Source of the DNA: Polyangiaceae bacterium | Lineage (GTDB): Bacteria; Myxococcota_A; Polyangia; Polyangiales; Polyangiaceae | Direction of reading: 5' to 3' | Assembly: GCA_025353725.1 (NCBI GenBank) | Contig: JANXOF010000045.1 | Coordinates: forward strand, 1 to 64,000 | Length of the DNA stretch: 64,000 nt | Shown: piece by piece, positions 44,061 through 53,829 of the stretch | Layout: every line of letters starts with the position of its first letter | Position numbering within the stretch: position 1 is the first letter of the stretch | Notes under the pieces: generated by a model | Databases searched by the model: none | The model's input: only the letters and a program-made list of their open reading frames with translations | Told to the model about the DNA's origin: nothing | Program-made: the position numbers and the translations under genes

Positions 44061-46073
44061 ATGGCCTCAGACAAGACTCACAAAAGCCACGCGGCCGATG
44101 TGCGCCCCTCGCCTTCCGAAGGCGGAGGCGTCAACACGGGCGTTGCTATCATTGGATTTTTACTGTGCTTTCTCGCGGGCGGCGCGGTCATGTGGGGCTA
44201 CGACAGCCACCGCATGAAGACCGCCGGCGGAATCACCGCCGATTCCGGCGGCCCCGCCTGGTCGGATTCGGATTCTCCGATTTCCGTCACGAGCCAAGAC
44301 CCCGTTTGGGGCAACCGAAGCGCCCCGGTGACGATCGTCACGTTCTCGGACTTCCAGTGCCCGTTCTGTTCCAAAGTCGAGCCTTCACTCGACCAAGTGA
44401 AAACGGCGTACGGCCCCGACAAGGTGCGCATCGTCTGGAAAAACCAGCCGCTTCCGATGCACGACAAGGCAAAGCCCGCAGGCGAAGCGGCCCAAGTCGT
44501 CTTTATGTTGAAGGGCTCCGATGCGTTCTGGAAGTTCCACGACACCGCCTTCAAAAACCAACAGCAGCTGTCACCCGAGAGCTACGAGAAGTGGGCCGTG
44601 GCGTCGGGCGTCGACCTCAACGCCTTCAAGGCGGCGATGGCCGCGCACAAGGGGGCGAAAAAGGTCGAGGACGACATGCAAGTCGCCAACAAGGCGGGGG
44701 CAAACGGTACGCCCGCGTTTCGCATCAACGGCGTGGAGCTCTCGGGCGCGCAGCCGTTCGAGAAGTTCAAAGAGACCATCGACAAGGAGCTCGGAAAGGC
44801 CGAAGCGAAGGTCAAGGCGGGAACGCCGAAAGACAAGATCTACGTCGCAATGTCGTCTGAAAACTTCAAAAACGCTCCTGCTAAAAAGGGCGAAGACGAA
44901 GAAGAGGGCGAGAAGGAAGACACGAAAACTGTCTGGCGTGTGCCCGTGGCCAATTCGCCGGTCTACGGCAAGGCTGACGCGCCCGTGACGATTATCGAGT
45001 TCTCGGACTTCCAGTGCCCCTACTGCAAGCGCGTGGGGCCGCAGATGCAGAAAATCAAAGAGACGTATGCCGACAAGGTTCGCATCGTCTGGAAGCACGC
45101 GCCGCTTCCGTTCCACCCGCGCGCCGAACCGGCGGCGGAGGTCTCGATCGAAGCGCGCATCCAAAAGGGCGACAAAGGCTTTTGGGATGCTCACGACAAG
45201 CTCTTCGAGTCGCAGCCGAAGCTCGACGACGCGGACTTGGAGAAAGTCGCGGCCGATCTCGGACTCGATGTCGGCAAGGTCAAAGCCGCGATTAAGGACA
45301 AGAAGCATAAGAAAGAAGTCGATGCCGACCTCGAGTTGGTTGAGGACGTCGCGGCTCAAGGTACGCCTCACTTCTTCGTGAACGGCCGGCGGCTCGTGGG
45401 TGCGCAGCCTTTTGAGAAGTTCCAAAAGATTATCGATGAAGAGCTGCAGAAGTTCGACGCCCAAAAGGGCAAGGTCGCGGCGAAGGATTATTACGCGTCG
45501 CTCATGAGAGACGCGAAGGGAGCGCCCGAGCCCGAGAAGAAGCAAGCACCGCCGGTTCCCGCGGGGAACGCGTTCAAGGGCGGAAAAGACGCTCGCGTCG
45601 TCATTCAGCAATGGAGCGACTACCAGTGCCCCTTCTGCTCGCGCGTTGAGCCGACGGTTAATGAGGTCCAAAAGGCCTATGGCGACAAGGTGAAAATCGT
45701 ATGGCGCGACAAGCCCCTTCCGATGCACTCCGATGCGCCGCTCGCCGCAGAAGCAGGCCGTGAAGCCCTCAAACAAAAGGGCTCGGATGGCTTTTGGAAG
45801 ATTCACAAGAAGATGTTCGAAAATCAGCAAAAGTTGAAGCGCGAAGATCTCGAGAGCTATGCCAAAGAGATCGGCCTTGACATGGATAAGTTCAAAGCTG
45901 CACTCGATAACCGCACTCACAAGGCGGCTGTCGAAGCCGATGACAAGGCGGGCACAGACATCGGCATTAGCGGTACCCCCGCATTCCTGATTAACGGGTA
46001 CTACATAAGCGGCGCTCAGCCGTTCCCGAAGTTCAAGAAGCTGATTGACCGCGCGATGGCCGAAGGCAAGTAA
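44061..46073 (+). CDS. Membrane-anchored protein with three tandem DsbA-like domains
   Basis: A 670-residue protein with a transmembrane anchor near 27-47 and three DsbA/thioredoxin-4 domains. Each has a CPxC active site in the VTxxxFSDFQCP context: CPFC (100-103), CPYC (319-322) and CPFC (523-526). Each ends with the cis-Pro element (GTPAFRINGVELSGAQPFEKF, GTPHFFVNGRRLVGAQPFEKF, GTPAFLINGYYISGAQPFPKF in outline). Linkers of about 25-70 Lys/Glu-rich residues separate the domains. Such enzymes exchange disulfides in the periplasm. Three in one chain is rare. A perfect-looking terminator follows. A paralog lies 1 kb downstream. Confidence 0.92.
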   Translation: MASDKTHKSHAADVRPSPSEGGGVNTGVAIIGFLLCFLAGGAVMWGYDSHRMKTAGGITADSGGPAWSDSDSPISVTSQDPVWGNRSAPVTIVTFSDFQCPFCSKVEPSLDQVKTAYGPDKVRIVWKNQPLPMHDKAKPAGEAAQVVFMLKGSDAFWKFHDTAFKNQQQLSPESYEKWAVASGVDLNAFKAAMAAHKGAKKVEDDMQVANKAGANGTPAFRINGVELSGAQPFEKFKETIDKELGKAEAKVKAGTPKDKIYVAMSSENFKNAPAKKGEDEEEGEKEDTKTVWRVPVANSPVYGKADAPVTIIEFSDFQCPYCKRVGPQMQKIKETYADKVRIVWKHAPLPFHPRAEPAAEVSIEARIQKGDKGFWDAHDKLFESQPKLDDADLEKVAADLGLDVGKVKAAIKDKKHKKEVDADLELVEDVAAQGTPHFFVNGRRLVGAQPFEKFQKIIDEELQKFDAQKGKVAAKDYYASLMRDAKGAPEPEKKQAPPVPAGNAFKGGKDARVVIQQWSDYQCPFCSRVEPTVNEVQKAYGDKVKIVWRDKPLPMHSDAPLAAEAGREALKQKGSDGFWKIHKKMFENQQKLKREDLESYAKEIGLDMDKFKAALDNRTHKAAVEADDKAGTDIGISGTPAFLINGYYISGAQPFPKFKKLIDRAMAEGK

Positions 46074-46076
46074 GCC

Positions 46077-46100
46077 GCTCGCTCGCTCGCTCGCTCGCTC
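46077..46100. repeat. GCTC tetranucleotide repeat
   Basis: Five to six copies of GCTC/CGCT follow the triple-DsbA stop. A simple sequence repeat, no coding role. Confidence 0.85.
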
Positions 46101-46151
46101 ACGCGCGCGTCGTGCGCTGCGCATGAGCGGCGCTGCACGCGCGTGAACCTC

Positions 46152-46187
46152 GAAAAGCCTCTTCTCCATTTGGAGAAGGGGCTTTTC
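46152..46187 (+). terminator. Strong 16-bp hairpin after the triple-DsbA gene
   Basis: GAAAAGCC with CTTCTCC pairs with GGAGAAG and GGCTTTTC around an ATTT loop, one G-T wobble in an otherwise complete 16-bp stem. It lies 78 bases after the stop. Confidence 0.8.
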
Positions 46188-46283
46188 GCTGTCCCAAGCT
46201 TTGCTCCTTTCCGACCCGCGCGCTTCGTTTCGAGCGTCGCCTCTTTTTAGCCGACTGCAAAAGCGCTAGCATCAGCCAAAACG

Positions 46284-46973
46284 ATGGTTGGAAATGCGGA
46301 CGCCCCGGTCTCACGGCTAAAGCCTGGGGCACTGAACTATGAACGCCCTGAGCTCGATAGCCACTTCTGGGTAAAAGACGATATTCTCGAGAATCCGCTC
46401 GAGGTCACGCAACGCTGCCTCAGCCAAGATCGCTGGATTCTCGGTACGCCGTACCGTGAAGAGAGCTGGCCAGGCATGCGTGCGCCCGGCGCACTCCTCC
46501 CGGAGGAACTCGCCCGAGTCGAAGCGTGGGTTATCAAAAAGCTTGGGCTTTTGGCCTTGAGTGCGCCGTCGGGGGCGCTGTCTCACAATCACGTTCAACT
46601 CGTCGGCGGTGGCGAATCCAGCGCGCGGCCGCACGTCGACTCACGAGCGCTCTGCGACCTTGCCGGCGTTCTGTATCTGCACCCGTTTCCGGCGACCAAA
46701 CACTCGGGAACATCGTTCTTTCGGCTTCGACTGCCTGACGGAACACTTGACGGTAACGTCTGCCCGCCGCCCTACAATGGGTTGCACGAAGCGCTCGGCG
46801 TCCGGAAGGTACCCATTCACGCATGGGTCGAGGAAGTCGAAGTCCCGAATGTGTTCAATCGCCTTGTCGTCTATCGTCCCGACATCGTGCATTCCGCCAC
46901 GTCTTACTTCGGCTCCGAGCACGCACAAAAGCGACTCACCGCGGTATTTTTCTGGAAAGTCACGCGCGCCTGA
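46284..46973 (+). CDS. 2-oxoglutarate/Fe(II) oxygenase-like protein (DUF6445 type)
   Basis: A 229-residue cytosolic protein with the His-x-Asp...His metal triad: HVD at 117-119 (ARPHVDSRAL) and His203 in PDIVHSATSYF, followed by Arg217 (QKRLTAVFFW) in the place of the 2-oxoglutarate-binding Arg. The Pro/Ser-rich segment and YLHPFPATKHSGTSFF fit a double-stranded beta-helix. I recall the DUF6445 family as similar. The substrate is unknown. The gene lies between the two triple-DsbA paralogs, 96 bases after the hairpin. Confidence 0.72.
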   Translation: MVGNADAPVSRLKPGALNYERPELDSHFWVKDDILENPLEVTQRCLSQDRWILGTPYREESWPGMRAPGALLPEELARVEAWVIKKLGLLALSAPSGALSHNHVQLVGGGESSARPHVDSRALCDLAGVLYLHPFPATKHSGTSFFRLRLPDGTLDGNVCPPPYNGLHEALGVRKVPIHAWVEEVEVPNVFNRLVVYRPDIVHSATSYFGSEHAQKRLTAVFFWKVTRA

Positions 46974-47043
46974 CGGGCCAAACGCCAAGGCGATAAGGGT
47001 CGCACCACGGCGGAAGGCGGGGTAGAAACTCGACTTACTACCC

Positions 47044-49122
47044 TTGCTTTTTAGAGCCCCGATATCGTTGACTCGATCGTCTGTCCGAGCACGTCTCCAT
47101 GCCTGCCTCGTTTTGGCGCAGGTTGCGCGGCTCGCTTTGGTGGCCGTTCTTTGCGTCGCGGTTGGCGCGTGCGGCGTGCCGGAACTCCCGCGCGTGGCCG
47201 TCGGCCCTGCGGGCTACGGGCGTGCGGATGAAACAGACGCTTCGAAGAACGTTTTGCCCTCGGAGTTTGCCTCGGAGAATGAGGCCGCAGTCCCCATCGA
47301 CAAGGATGACCCGGTGCGCGGGAAGCGTGACGCGTGGGTTACCGTCGTCGTGTGGTCAGATTTCCAATGTCCATTTTGCGGACGGCTCGCGGACACGCTC
47401 AGGCGGGTGGCTGAGACCTACAAAGACGATGTGCGCTTCGTCTTTAAAAACGACCCGCTTCCGTTTCACGAACACGCGCGGATGGCGGCCGAGGTAGGGC
47501 AGGGCGTGTTTGCGCTCCAGGGAAGCGAGGCCTTTTGGCGCTACCATGACTTCGCGTTTCGTCAGGTCTCGCGCATCAGCCCAGAAGCCATTCGAGGTTG
47601 GGCTATTGCGGCAGGCGCCGATTCTCGCGCCCTCGAGGATGGGCTGACGCGCAAGGCGTGGTCTGCAAAGGTCGCTCGCGACGAGGCTGTAGGGAAGCGC
47701 CTTGGTGTCAAGGGCACGCCTGCTTCGTTTGTCAACGGCGTACTGCTCGACGGCGCTCAGCCTTTTGAAAATTGGCAAACGGTTATCGACATCGAACTTC
47801 AAAAAGCGAAGGCTCTCAGCGCCACGGTCGGCGTTGGTCGCGAGCAGCTTTACGCGCGCGCCGCGTCCGCGAACGTCGCGGCCTCAAAAGTCTCAAAAGC
47901 TACGAAACCAGAGCGTGAGAGCGACGACGACAAGCCGGATACGTCGGTCTGGCGGGTGCCCGTGGGCACATCGCCTGTACGCGGCGGTCGCGCGGCGCTC
48001 GTCACCATCGTCGAATTTAGCGATTTTCAGTGCCCTTTTTGCAAAAAGGTCGAGCCCACACTTGAGCGGCTCCGCGCGGAGTATGGCGACAGACTTCGCA
48101 TCGTGTGGAAGGACGAGCCTCTCCCGTTTCATCCGCGGGCTCTCCCTGCCGCGCTGCTCGCACGCGCCGCACGCGCCCAAAAAGGTGATGCGGGCTTCTG
48201 GTCTGCGCACGATAAGCTTTTCGCCGCGCAGCCAAACCTCGAGGAGTCGGACCTCGAAGCCATCGCTCGCAGCCTGAGTGTCGAGGTCGCAGCGATGCGG
48301 GACGGAGCGAAAGCCAGAGCGCAAACGAAGGCGATCGAGGAGGATATCGCTCTCGGCGACGACGTTCACGCGAACGGCGCGCCGCACTTCTTTATCAACG
48401 GTCGTCGCCTTATCGGCGCTCAGCCTTACGAGTCTTTTAAGGCGGCCATTGATGAAGAGCTCCTGAAAGCCGAGGGGCTTGTCCGCAGTGGCGTCGCGAA
48501 AGAGGCTCTCTACGACGCACTCATCAAAGATGGCACGTCCGCACCCGAGCCGGAGCGCAAGATCGTCGCATTTCCGTCCAGCGCGCCGTTTCGAGGTTCC
48601 GCAAATGCGAAGGTTATCATTCAGGAATTTTCCGACTTTCAGTGCCCCTTTTGCGGCCGGGCCGAAGCCACGATGGACGAGCTGCTTAGGCTTTATCCTG
48701 GTCAGCTCAAAGTCGTGTGGCGCAACCTACCGCTCGCGATGCATGCCGATGCACCGCTCGCCGCAGAGGCTGCGCGCGAGGCGTTCGCGCAAAAGGGAAA
48801 TGACGGATTCTCGAAATTTCGCGCGCTTGTCTTCGAGCATCAGCGTGAAGAGGACGGTCTAAAGCGGGCCGCGCTCGAATCTTACGCCGCGACTGTGGGG
48901 CTCGAAGTTACAAAATTTGGCAAGGCGCTCGATGACCGCGTCCATCGCGTCGTGGTGGAAGAAGACGCCAAAGCCGCAAACGACGCCGGAATTGCCGGTA
49001 CTCCGAGCTTTCTCGTCGGCCCTTACGCCTTGAGTGGCGCGCAGCCCCTTTCAAAGTTCAAGCGGCTCGTCGAACGGGCGCTGACTGCGCCGCCCGCCGC
49101 CAAGTTGCCCGCCGCGAAATAA
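47044..49122 (+). CDS. Lipoprotein with three tandem DsbA-like domains
   Basis: A 692-residue paralog of the protein 1 kb upstream, but with a lipobox (AVGAC, Cys43) and no membrane helix. Active sites: CPFC (109-112), CPFC (330-333), CPFC (534-537), each in the same FSDFQCPFC context, and each domain with the GTPxFxVNG cis-Pro segment. The domains pair one-to-one in order with those of the paralog, so a duplication of the whole protein is likely. TTG at 47044 is the probable start, but a later one is possible. Anchoring differs from the paralog (outer or inner membrane by sorting), suggesting they act at different membranes. Confidence 0.9.
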   Translation: MLFRAPISLTRSSVRARLHACLVLAQVARLALVAVLCVAVGACGVPELPRVAVGPAGYGRADETDASKNVLPSEFASENEAAVPIDKDDPVRGKRDAWVTVVVWSDFQCPFCGRLADTLRRVAETYKDDVRFVFKNDPLPFHEHARMAAEVGQGVFALQGSEAFWRYHDFAFRQVSRISPEAIRGWAIAAGADSRALEDGLTRKAWSAKVARDEAVGKRLGVKGTPASFVNGVLLDGAQPFENWQTVIDIELQKAKALSATVGVGREQLYARAASANVAASKVSKATKPERESDDDKPDTSVWRVPVGTSPVRGGRAALVTIVEFSDFQCPFCKKVEPTLERLRAEYGDRLRIVWKDEPLPFHPRALPAALLARAARAQKGDAGFWSAHDKLFAAQPNLEESDLEAIARSLSVEVAAMRDGAKARAQTKAIEEDIALGDDVHANGAPHFFINGRRLIGAQPYESFKAAIDEELLKAEGLVRSGVAKEALYDALIKDGTSAPEPERKIVAFPSSAPFRGSANAKVIIQEFSDFQCPFCGRAEATMDELLRLYPGQLKVVWRNLPLAMHADAPLAAEAAREAFAQKGNDGFSKFRALVFEHQREEDGLKRAALESYAATVGLEVTKFGKALDDRVHRVVVEEDAKAANDAGIAGTPSFLVGPYALSGAQPLSKFKRLVERALTAPPAAKLPAAK

Positions 49123-49692
49123 ATGTTCGCTCTTCGCATTCGCATAGCTTCCTTCTGCATCGTGGGTTGGGGCGCGCTTGCTCCGAGCGAGGCCGCTGCC
49201 GTCGAGCATCAGCACCACGTCGGGCTCGATCCGTCTCTTTCAATTCTCAAAGTGGCCGACAAGTCCACGGCGAGCGTAGGCGTCGGATTGAGTGTGCATT
49301 ACACCTATGGGATAAGCGATCAATTCAACTTTATGTCGGAGTTGAACGCGTCTCAAGTCGCCGCGAGTCAGGAGCAGGACCAGCCCTCTTCGCCCCGCAC
49401 ACGGCCGTCGACCGTAGCTCACGGACTTGCCGGTGTCGGGTATGTCATTGATGTACTTCGCTGGGTGCCTTACGTCGGTGTACTCGTCGGCGGCTATCAC
49501 ATATCGGGAGGTACGCTCGACGCGAGCGCGCTTGCGTTTGGTGGTGCCGTACAGCTGGGACTCGACTACCAGCTCTCAAGGCACTGGGCGCTTGGCGCGT
49601 CCGGCGAGCAGCATCTTCTGGTCACGAAGCTAAGTCGCTATCCCTCGTATACGACGGCCATGCTCCGCGTCGAATACATGTGGGGGTTCTGA
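49123..49692 (+). CDS. Small outer-membrane beta-barrel protein
   Basis: A 189-residue protein that starts at the base after the lipoprotein stop. It has a signal peptide (ending in PSEAAA), then alternating strands (VGVGLSVHYTYGISDQF, AGVGYVIDVLRWVPYVGVLV, AFGGAVQLGLDYQLSRHWALGASGE) and a C-terminal Phe, the pattern of an 8-stranded OmpA-like or Ail-like barrel. It is translated together with the triple-DsbA lipoprotein, so it may be a client or partner. Confidence 0.78.
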   Translation: MFALRIRIASFCIVGWGALAPSEAAAVEHQHHVGLDPSLSILKVADKSTASVGVGLSVHYTYGISDQFNFMSELNASQVAASQEQDQPSSPRTRPSTVAHGLAGVGYVIDVLRWVPYVGVLVGGYHISGGTLDASALAFGGAVQLGLDYQLSRHWALGASGEQHLLVTKLSRYPSYTTAMLRVEYMWGF

Positions 49693-52613: not shown

Positions 52614-52649
52614 CGCCTTCGGGGGTTGACGTTGGGCGGTGAACCGCCG

Positions 52650-53120
52650 ATGTTTCGGACTCGAATGGGGAGTTACGGGGGCTATCTTCTCGAAACGGCT
52701 GTCACACTGGTGGTCGTCTCGACCCTCGCGTTCGTGATTCTTTACGGTGCGCGCCGTCTCGGAGTCGGTCGGCCGCGGGGGCCGATTGAGCTGGTCGGTC
52801 AGCTCCCGCTCGATGCGCGCCGCGCGATCTATCTCATCCAGGTTGGGGAGCAGGTGCTGGTCGTCGGAGCCTCGGAGGCCGGTTTTACCAAATTAGGCGA
52901 AGTCTCATCGCGCGAGCTTCCCGTGGCCGAGACCGTGCGGGGCGCGTCGTTTCGCGAGGTTCTCGCGCGCGTCGTAGGTGACGGCAGGCGCAGTATCGAC
53001 CGAGGCGTGGGAACGTCGCACCCCGCGCCCAACGTACCGAACAAGCCGCCGGCACGTGATCTAGAGGCGGCTGGGAGCGATCCATGCAGCCTTGAAAGGG
53101 AAGTCCATGACGTTCGTTGA
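52650..53120 (+). CDS. FliO-like type III export accessory protein
   Basis: A 156-residue protein with one N-terminal transmembrane helix (LLETAVTLVVVSTLAFVILYGARRL) and a cytosolic domain of the FliO pattern: PIELVGQLPLDARRAIYLIQVGEQVLVVGASEAGFTKLGEV. TTG at 52626 is an alternative start. The C-terminus is Pro-rich. FliO helps assemble FliP. The stop overlaps the next gene by 14 bases, a tight coupling. Confidence 0.8.
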   Translation: MFRTRMGSYGGYLLETAVTLVVVSTLAFVILYGARRLGVGRPRGPIELVGQLPLDARRAIYLIQVGEQVLVVGASEAGFTKLGEVSSRELPVAETVRGASFREVLARVVGDGRRSIDRGVGTSHPAPNVPNKPPARDLEAAGSDPCSLEREVHDVR

Positions 53121-53829
53121 ACTCGGGCGCGCGTTCGCCTTTGCGGCCCCTGAGGTACCGCAGGTGGAGCAGATACTTGCCAAGCCCGTCGCGCTCGTTG
53201 TCGCTCTCGCGCTCGTTTCGCTCGTCCCCTTCGTCTTCATGGGGGTAACGGCATTCGTTAAAATTTCGACGGTTTTACAAATCGTACGCGGGGCCATCGG
53301 CGCTTCGTCCGTCCCGTCGAATACGGTGATTACAGCGTTAGCCACGGCGCTTACACTGATTGCCATGGCCCCGGTGGGCCAACGCATCGTCGACCGTACC
53401 CTGCCGCTTATCCAAAGCCGAAGCACGAAAGACGATGCCACGGTGCTTCTTGAGAAAGGCATCGATGCCATTCGAGAGCCGATGCGCGACTTCTTGAAAA
53501 ACAACGCAGCCGCGAAGGAACGAGCTCGTTTCCTCGCGGTGGCTAGGCATGCGCGACCCGAAGCCGAGCGCGCCAACGTTACCGCCGATGACCTCACGGT
53601 CCTCGTGCCGGCGTTCGTGGTCACAGAACTCACCGAGGCGTTCGCCATAGGCTTTCTGGTCTATCTCCCGTTCCTGATTATCGACTTAGTCATTGCGAAC
53701 GTGCTTCTCGCGCTCGGGATGCAGATGCTGAATCCGGCGCAGGTGAGTTTGCCATTCAAACTTCTGCTCTTTGTCGCCATAGACGGCTGGGGACTGTTAG
53801 CCCAGGCTTTGGTCTCTGGGTACCGGTAG
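53107..53829 (+). CDS. FliP/SctR-type export gate protein
   Basis: A 240-residue integral membrane protein of the core type III export gate: FVFMGVTAFVKISTVLQIVRGAIG, SVPSNTVITALATALTLIAMAPV, then a cytosolic loop with an EKG-region, LVPAFVVTELTEAFAIGFLVYLPFLIIDLVIANVLLALGM and NPAQVSLPFKLLLFVAIDGW. The FliP/SctR plan is complete. ATG 53107 is preceded by GAAAGGGA. No FliQ, FliR, FlhB or SctSTU follow; the next gene is an unrelated minus-strand lipoprotein. Whether it serves a flagellum or an injectisome is not decided by sequence alone. Confidence 0.9.
   Translation: MTFVELGRAFAFAAPEVPQVEQILAKPVALVVALALVSLVPFVFMGVTAFVKISTVLQIVRGAIGASSVPSNTVITALATALTLIAMAPVGQRIVDRTLPLIQSRSTKDDATVLLEKGIDAIREPMRDFLKNNAAAKERARFLAVARHARPEAERANVTADDLTVLVPAFVVTELTEAFAIGFLVYLPFLIIDLVIANVLLALGMQMLNPAQVSLPFKLLLFVAIDGWGLLAQALVSGYR

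Follow-up and report, generated by a model that had tools for sequence, protein, structure and literature searches.

The window analysed here is a stretch of 64,000 nucleotides from a Polyangiaceae bacterium (assembly GCA_025353725.1, contig JANXOF010000045.1, positions 1 to 64,000 of the forward strand). It contains two paralogous genes, A and B, each of which encodes three DsbA-like domains in one polypeptide chain (Table 1). Sequence and structural analyses suggest that the two proteins are quite possibly, though not yet probably, thiol-disulfide foldases or isomerases of the cell envelope, each consisting of three linked and individually complete DsbA-like domains. This function is proposed because the sites are linked in one multi-site chain, DsbB is missing, some genomes with relatives of A are free of VKOR, and the own genome encodes a DsbD-like protein.

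Six DsbA-like domains in two paralogs had been claimed in a first-pass annotation of this DNA, and both the open reading frames (ORFs) and the domains were confirmed. The Pfam model Thioredoxin_4 (PF13462) matched three stretches in A (274 bits) and three in B (216 bits). Each of the six domains scored over the cut-off, which places them among the DsbA-like thioredoxin-fold domains (PF13462/PF01323). The whole 6.6 Mb assembly contains eight Thioredoxin_4 domains, six of them at the A/B locus. All six have a CPFC or CPYC active site and a cis-proline; the cis-Pro motif is GTP in five domains and GAP in the second domain of B (B2). Cysteines outside the CPxC sites occur in the N-terminal membrane or signal segments only (C36 in A; C21, C37, and the lipobox C43 in B). 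The AlphaFold model of A, the chain that was folded, shows an N-terminal helix and three DsbA folds with the inserted helical domain. Its predicted local distance difference test (pLDDT) score is 90.8, mostly above 90, and its predicted template modelling (pTM) score is 0.60.

The active sites are conserved across the relatives. A domain scan of 90 stretches (the window and 69 plus 20 loci) recognised 121 genes. Three domains were found in 96 of them, two in 10, four in 8, and one in 6; the remaining gene (L168) has five DsbA domains and a sixth cut short. These counts describe the family rather than a random sample, because the stretches were fetched for matching A. Four-domain chains in which all sites are CPFC were seen in six genes (L162, L165, L166, L169, L170, and L177). 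The sites were counted in profile-aligned columns, with a TGA codon at the first Cys position counted as kept. CxxC is present at all three sites in 88 of the 96 three-domain genes, as expected if every site works, and 87 of the 96 also retain the cis-Pro residues. The loss of Cys or cis-Pro from most domains, which the first-pass annotation had regarded as a counter-argument, was thus not found. The GT-cisPro motif (GTP) occurs at positions 1, 2, and 3 in 92, 89, and 91 of the 96 genes. The eight exceptions include a gene pair of one genome (G042) with Thr or Ser as the second residue at all three sites, and a gene with too short a first domain for its site to be read. Replacement of the second active-site Cys by Thr or Ser was seen in L107 (from G042), and also in L104, L105, and L127; these may be monothiol or non-redox versions. 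In an alignment of 69 proteins, both Cys of sites 1 and 2, the first Cys of site 3, and the three cis-prolines are invariant, while the other Cys of site 3 is almost invariant; the rows (A, B, and 67 of the 89 references) were chosen by hand, and this list is somewhat flattering because the Thr/Ser variants L107 and L127 were left outside.

In the available text of a comparative study (PMC6450060), the GTcP motif is found in all five isomerases compared, two or more catalytic domains are required for strong isomerase activity, and several active sites are gained by oligomerising. With three linked sites per chain, A and B have the two or more catalytic domains without a stalk. The accessible part of another study reports that PmScsC without its trimerisation part loses isomerase activity and gains oxidase activity (PMC5524982). 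In the proposed mechanism, A would act on the periplasmic side of the inner membrane, and B would be active from the outer membrane. A single client would be engaged by several CPxC sites of the same flexible chain, and wrong disulfides would be broken and remade. One polypeptide might then do what ScsC, alpha-DsbA2, or DsbC achieve as trimers or dimers. An isomerase of this kind has to stay reduced and would therefore need a reductant, most likely the DsbD-like protein of the own genome (DsbD_TM and thioredoxin). New disulfides would be supplied separately by a VKOR-DsbA fusion. The small barrel encoded after B may be its partner, or just a co-regulated gene. A disulfide relay along the chain is not required by the foldase reading.

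No DsbB was found with the Pfam model in 19 genomes (the own genome and 18 relatives, including all eight without VKOR). VKOR was detected with Pfam models in 48 of 56 genomes, own included, and was undetected in the other eight. All eight VKOR-less genomes carry relatives of A, and a three-domain gene was seen in each of the five with fetched DNA (G001, G059, G062, G064, and G076). Four of the eight are 98-100% complete (G059, G062, G071, and G076), and two of these four belong to one genus. A divergent oxidant missed by the Pfam models may exist in the VKOR-less genomes. The own genome has one VKOR, fused to a DsbA domain in a 341-residue protein (L130:6521-7546, reverse strand, contig C36), and this fusion is probably a self-contained oxidase. 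The same genome encodes one DsbD_TM protein with a C-terminal thioredoxin (a 598-aa ORF, on another contig than A and B), and one further single DsbA-like protein.

These partners also bear on a different function, in which A and B would be high-capacity, multi-site thiol oxidases of the DsbA type, re-oxidised by VKOR, and would introduce disulfides into exported proteins. The frequency of VKOR, own genome included, fits such a role; CPxC with Pro is also of the DsbA type, and the BdbD and Corynebacterium DsbA chains, which are oxidases, are among the solved proteins closest in sequence. However, DsbB was missing from all 19 genomes, the eight genomes with relatives of A but without detected VKOR and DsbB include the four nearly complete ones, and the VKOR of the own genome already has a DsbA domain in the same protein. 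An oxidase function is therefore considered rather unlikely. The first-pass annotation had named the unit an envelope thiol-oxidation module. Two envelope paralogs with three intact redox sites each agree with the envelope part of this description; the oxidation is unproven, given the results for DsbB and VKOR.

Several observations weigh against the foldase or isomerase function. The GT-cisPro motif is no proof of an isomerase, because the DsbA of Corynebacterium diphtheriae (4pwp) contains SGTPAF with a closely similar ISGAQP stretch, and this protein is MdbA, an oxidase. The GAP of B2 departs from GTP, and CPFC and CPYC are compatible with an oxidase, an isomerase, or a reductase. The pTM score of A does not settle the mutual placement of the three domains. 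VKOR is present in most genomes, and the search for DsbD covered the own genome alone. In the available text of PMC6450060, an N-terminal oligomerisation extension is the most telling isomerase feature. Such an extension is not evident in A, where the ~75 residues before domain 1 consist of the anchor helix and low-confidence stretches.

Structural comparison of the domains of A gave the following Z-scores: for domain 3, BdbD (24.1), alpha-DsbA2 (23.2), ScsC (22.6), and BcfH (21.7); for domain 1, 4pwo (20.2); for domain 2, alpha-DsbA1 (20.1). The list of matches was filled mostly by domain 3, and the absence of a family from it carries no meaning. ScsC (Proteus, Caulobacter), alpha-DsbA2 (Wolbachia), and BcfH are trimeric isomerases, which share the DsbA fold (Z 21.6-23.2), three sites per molecule, and the GT-cisPro motif. 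In A and B, however, the sites lie in one chain instead of a homotrimer, an anchor or lipobox replaces the trimerisation stalk, and no ScsB/DsbD family member was found next door among the 11 further window genes scanned around the unit. The closest solved sequences and folds are BdbD and Corynebacterium DsbA/MdbA, single-domain proteins that act with their partners as oxidases. A and B differ in having several domains, and no DsbB was found in the genomes searched. In the eukaryotic protein disulfide isomerase (PDI) family, a single chain likewise carries several catalytic domains of the thioredoxin fold in a row; ERp46 is a member with several catalytic domains. PDIR has three, according to the accessible text of PMC7687155. 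Unlike these, A and B are bacterial and membrane-tethered, and their domains are of the DsbA type (Pfam DSBA/Thioredoxin_4) rather than classical thioredoxins. The NCBIfam family NF041057 (Rcas_1661 family thioredoxin-like (seleno)lipoprotein), whose name covers selenocysteine forms and lipoproteins, matched A with 293.5 bits and B with 202.3 bits, both over the cut-off of 190. However, the profile has 247 positions and describes one such domain, the scores of A and B sum three stretches, and A has a membrane helix in place of a lipoprotein signal.

A tandem of DsbA-like domains is also known from the eukaryotic folding sensor UGGT, which has four (available text of PMC7687155) and offers a precedent for the handling of misfolded clients by such domains. 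Among the 50 Foldseek matches listed, the chain-long ones of A were eukaryotic UGGT only (5n2j_A, 562 columns, rank 1). A and B might accordingly be imagined as clamps that mainly recognise misfolded clients, with redox activity being secondary. This is very unlikely. The root-mean-square deviation of 15.4 and the TM score of 0.22 correspond to a series of similar domains, not to the same arrangement. CxxC is conserved in 88 of 96 genes, and no glycosyltransferase domain, such as UGGT has, was found among the Pfam hits of A and B. The UGGT domains 1-4 belong to their own Pfam families, Thioredoxin_12 to _15 (PMC7687155, accessible text), none of which is among those hits.

The first-pass annotation had regarded the unit as not described. 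Bacterial proteins with two or three DSBA domains, an architecture identical to that of A and B, were noted in a 2009 survey (PMC2757866); what its available text says of them does not extend to function, distribution, anchors, selenocysteine, or gene context. Among the titles listed, none was devoted to what such proteins do in Myxococcota or how they are distributed there, in a search that mostly did not reach the subscription literature.

The triple-DsbA family is widespread in Myxococcota. A search with A as the query found relatives in 95 of 96 genomes from the same order, the own genome among them, and 185 of 188 genomes drawn across the phylum gave matches at 1e-20. A match to A does not equal a triple gene, because about half of those 185 genomes give no match better than 1e-60, which is the level expected of single-domain proteins. 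Genes with at least three domains were confirmed in 22 of the 51 Myxococcota families sampled (f1, f2, f3, f5-f8, f10, f11, f14, f18, f19, f21, f23, f31, f33, f39, f40, f42, f44, f45, and f48), the others being unexamined or weakly matching. In a collection of named genomes searched with A, a three-domain gene was found in 43 of 79 loci, only two-domain genes in 3, and only single-domain genes in 33. The three-domain genes were labelled Myxococcales, Polyangiaceae, Labilithrix, Sorangium, Lujinxingia, Deltaproteobacteria, and the like. The single-domain genes were labelled Bdellovibrionales, Dadabacteria, Uhrbacteria, and Bacillus, and also included some Myxococcales, an Archangium record, and a Polyangiaceae record.

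It is conceivable, at a confidence well below even, that Myxococcota evolved their own single-chain analogue of PDI by joining DsbA domains into chains of three, four, or more. Such chains, with A at the inner and the lipoprotein B at the outer membrane and with selenocysteine at the first site in some lineages, would replace the oligomers of DsbC or ScsC and work without DsbB. If the isomerase function is correct, envelope folding in many Myxococcota, where DsbB and sometimes VKOR are undetected, would run on a system for which the literature searched holds no assay. The active sites are fused in one chain and kept in 88 of 96 genes, and the question whether linked sites suffice for isomerisation becomes directly testable.

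The two proteins appear to be held in the envelope in different ways. The first-pass annotation had given one chain a membrane helix and made the other a lipoprotein, which agrees with the modelled helix of A and with the lipobox of B. The N-terminal segment of A-type proteins is conserved (approximately M(N/S)KG(T/S)AIVGF.L.F.AG..LM.G). B-type proteins have a lipobox, such as ACG, at the N-terminus; the lipoprotein call for B rests on a lipobox recognised by eye. B has Gly at position +2, next to the lipobox Cys, which by the E. coli rule indicates the outer membrane, and B is therefore placed there, putatively. The relatives were labelled A or B type from a text pattern, and some labels are wrong (L084 is A type by its sequence). 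A whole-gene tree of the A and B proteins did not give two clean clades.

Phylogenetic analysis of the single domains was used to address whether single domains or the whole gene had been duplicated, a check proposed in the first-pass annotation. In a FastTree reconstruction of 319 domains, three large position clades were formed, each holding the A and B domains of the window at equal position. These clades contain 83 rows (81 third domains), 69 rows (66 second domains), and 67 rows (65 first domains), with supports of 52, 55, and 96, respectively; near-equal sets around A1, A2, and A3 have supports of 98, 99, and 96. Of the 95 first domains, 65 lie in the clade of their position, as do 66 of the 96 second domains and 81 of the 92 third ones; the others fall into smaller groups. 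The domains of longer chains mostly form their own groups. In the window, A1 and B1 share 47% identity, A2 and B2 54%, and A3 and B3 54%. Because the A and B domains pair by position, the tree shows that in the lineage of the window the triple existed before A and B separated, and that these two arose by a later duplication of the whole gene. Separate single-domain duplications in A and B were ruled out by the same tree. Two-domain genes and domains below 110 bits or 140 residues were left out of it, and single-domain genes were taken from four chosen loci only, of which three rows passed. The root is arbitrary, because these three rows are not grouped together, and two lie inside the big clades. 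The label changes number 9 to 17 per position, 4 to 5 of them forced by starred branches, so not every gene fits this simple picture.

The position-specific identity kept by the domains would allow them different redox potentials. A disulfide relay might be built on this, with three sites per chain: electrons would pass from domain to domain along the anchored A, then across the periplasm to B with its lipobox, as a link between the inner and outer membranes. This is highly improbable. At least 20 of the 69 stretches contain two or more three-domain genes, but A-B adjacency is not fixed: A and B lie ~17-21 kb apart in G002, G005, and G006, and many fetched stretches have a single A-type gene.

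Some relatives likely carry selenocysteine in one of the linked sites. In four genes, L098 and L132 (both G055), L099 (G072), and L167 (G221), a TGA codon takes the place of the first Cys codon in domain 1, and the reading frame is otherwise open. All three genomes have a tRNA-Sec that passes the Rfam threshold (74.3, 62.5, and 73.1 bits), and ARAGORN reported a tRNA-SeC (tca) in the first two, the third being outside that run. In all four cases the TGA is followed by a small hairpin whose loop contains GU, compared with 38 of the 311 Cys sites; two of the four genes, L098 and L132, are almost copies of each other. A stronger-than-usual hairpin was not found after the TGA, with energies of -8.0 to -14.0 against a mean of -9.2 (standard deviation 3.6) at the Cys sites. 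The four TGA genes are likely selenocysteine forms, because the TGA at a Cys position, the tRNA-Sec, and the GU-loop hairpin occur together. Among the 13 genomes tested, one more strong tRNA-Sec match was found, in G042 (69.4 bits), where no TGA form was seen; G202 gave a candidate match of 48.6 bits. Selenocysteine in the window's own genome was rejected, as its 47.4-bit tRNA-Sec match is a tRNA-Ser by ARAGORN. DsbA-like selenoproteins with UxxC are on a published list (PMC13188914, available text). Selenocysteine in a DsbA is thus already known; at one of three linked domains it was not met in the literature searched. In these four genes it may mark a position where the three sites need not be equivalent.

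Table 1. Features of the A/B locus, with positions in the window
Feature	Position	Strand	Characteristics
Small secreted-looking protein, 171 aa	43427..43942	+	Hydrophobic N-terminus, APLCDARGA motif, C-terminal ERPPRA
Gene A, membrane-anchored triple-DsbA protein, 670 aa	44061..46073	+	Anchor helix, residues 26-54
A domain 1	44292..44786	+	CPFC, GTP
A domain 2	44952..45440	+	CPYC, GTP
A domain 3	45576..46049	+	CPFC, GTP
DUF6445 gene ("2OG-oxygenase-like"), 229 aa	46284..46973	+	Judged an inserted neighbour outside the conserved unit
Gene B, triple-DsbA protein, 692 aa by putative TTG start	47044..49122	+	Lipobox AVGAC-G, Cys 43
B domain 1	47302..47790	+	CPFC, GTP
B domain 2	47965..48456	+	CPFC, GAP
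B domain 3	48586..49074	+	CPFC, GTP
Small outer-membrane beta-barrel, 189 aa	49123..49692	+	8 modelled strands, no gap after B

The barrel gene starts at the base after the stop codon of B. The protein matches Pfam OMP_b-brl (36 bits, cut-off 28.7), and its model has a pLDDT of 86.6; in Foldseek its top matches are small barrels like NspA, Ail, OmpA, and OmpW. Homologues were found in 16 of the 69 loci searched, all in different genomes and all within the window's own family. In 14 of these 16, a triple-DsbA gene of the same strand ends no more than ~500 bases before the barrel gene (13 B-type and one A-type, L084); in L087 and L093 it lies 2-4 kb from the triple gene. Within the genus, the barrel follows B in 8 of 8 genomes whose stretch extends past B (G001, G002, G005-G009, and G011); this count excludes G010, where the contig ends, and G003 and G004, whose neighbourhood was not fetched. 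The coupling of the barrel to B, as first annotated, is thus conserved in the genus, and chance adjacency of the two genes was rejected there. The case against chance adjacency is weaker for A and B. Linkage beyond this genome, which the first-pass annotation made decisive, therefore holds for B and the barrel in the genus, while A and B are not always adjacent and the oxygenase-like gene between them is not linked.

This gene, which the first-pass annotation had included in the unit, matches DUF6445 with 38 bits (cut-off 24). Beyond this match, the label of a 2-oxoglutarate (2OG) oxygenase is putative and rests on an HxD...H pattern, as is typical of this class. The gene occurs in 2 of 56 genomes, the own and G020 (1 of 55 others), and in G020 it lies on contig C16, away from the triple genes on C88, C96, and C146. 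In the nearest relative, G007, the gap between A and B contains other ORFs, one of them secreted-looking and of 475 residues. The oxygenase was therefore rejected as part of the unit and is an incidental neighbour. The copies of the window and of G020 share 75% identity at different locations, and the gene was probably acquired by transfer.

The 171-residue protein belongs to no Pfam family, and relatives keep it directly ahead of A. Among 105 multi-domain genes, 18 are preceded by its APxCDxRGA motif, which in 17 cases comes with an RPPR-type tail; the gene that follows is always of the A type and never of the B type. This placement, together with the barrel following the triple gene so closely in 14 of 16 loci, might suggest that A and B mature only a few clients encoded nearby, such as the APxCDxRGA protein and the barrel or other outer-membrane partners. 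Such a specialised substrate system is improbable: the barrel has no Cys after its signal segment and hardly any in its 16 homologues, the small protein has one well conserved Cys, and beyond the window's family the barrel was not found and the motif was seen once (L128), without the tail. The five proteins of the locus gave no match in PADLOC (defence systems).

Beyond the barrel, homologues of lysC, fliO, and fliP are found in many related loci. In the window, the FliO and FliP export genes lie downstream of lysC (52626-53829), and they recur with lysC in related loci. A further recurrent downstream neighbour without a Pfam family is presumably GNAT-like, judging from its appearance, and gives no functional clue. 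The other recurrent neighbours are Ser/Thr kinases, PilZ, PspA, and CesT/YbjN, which give none either.

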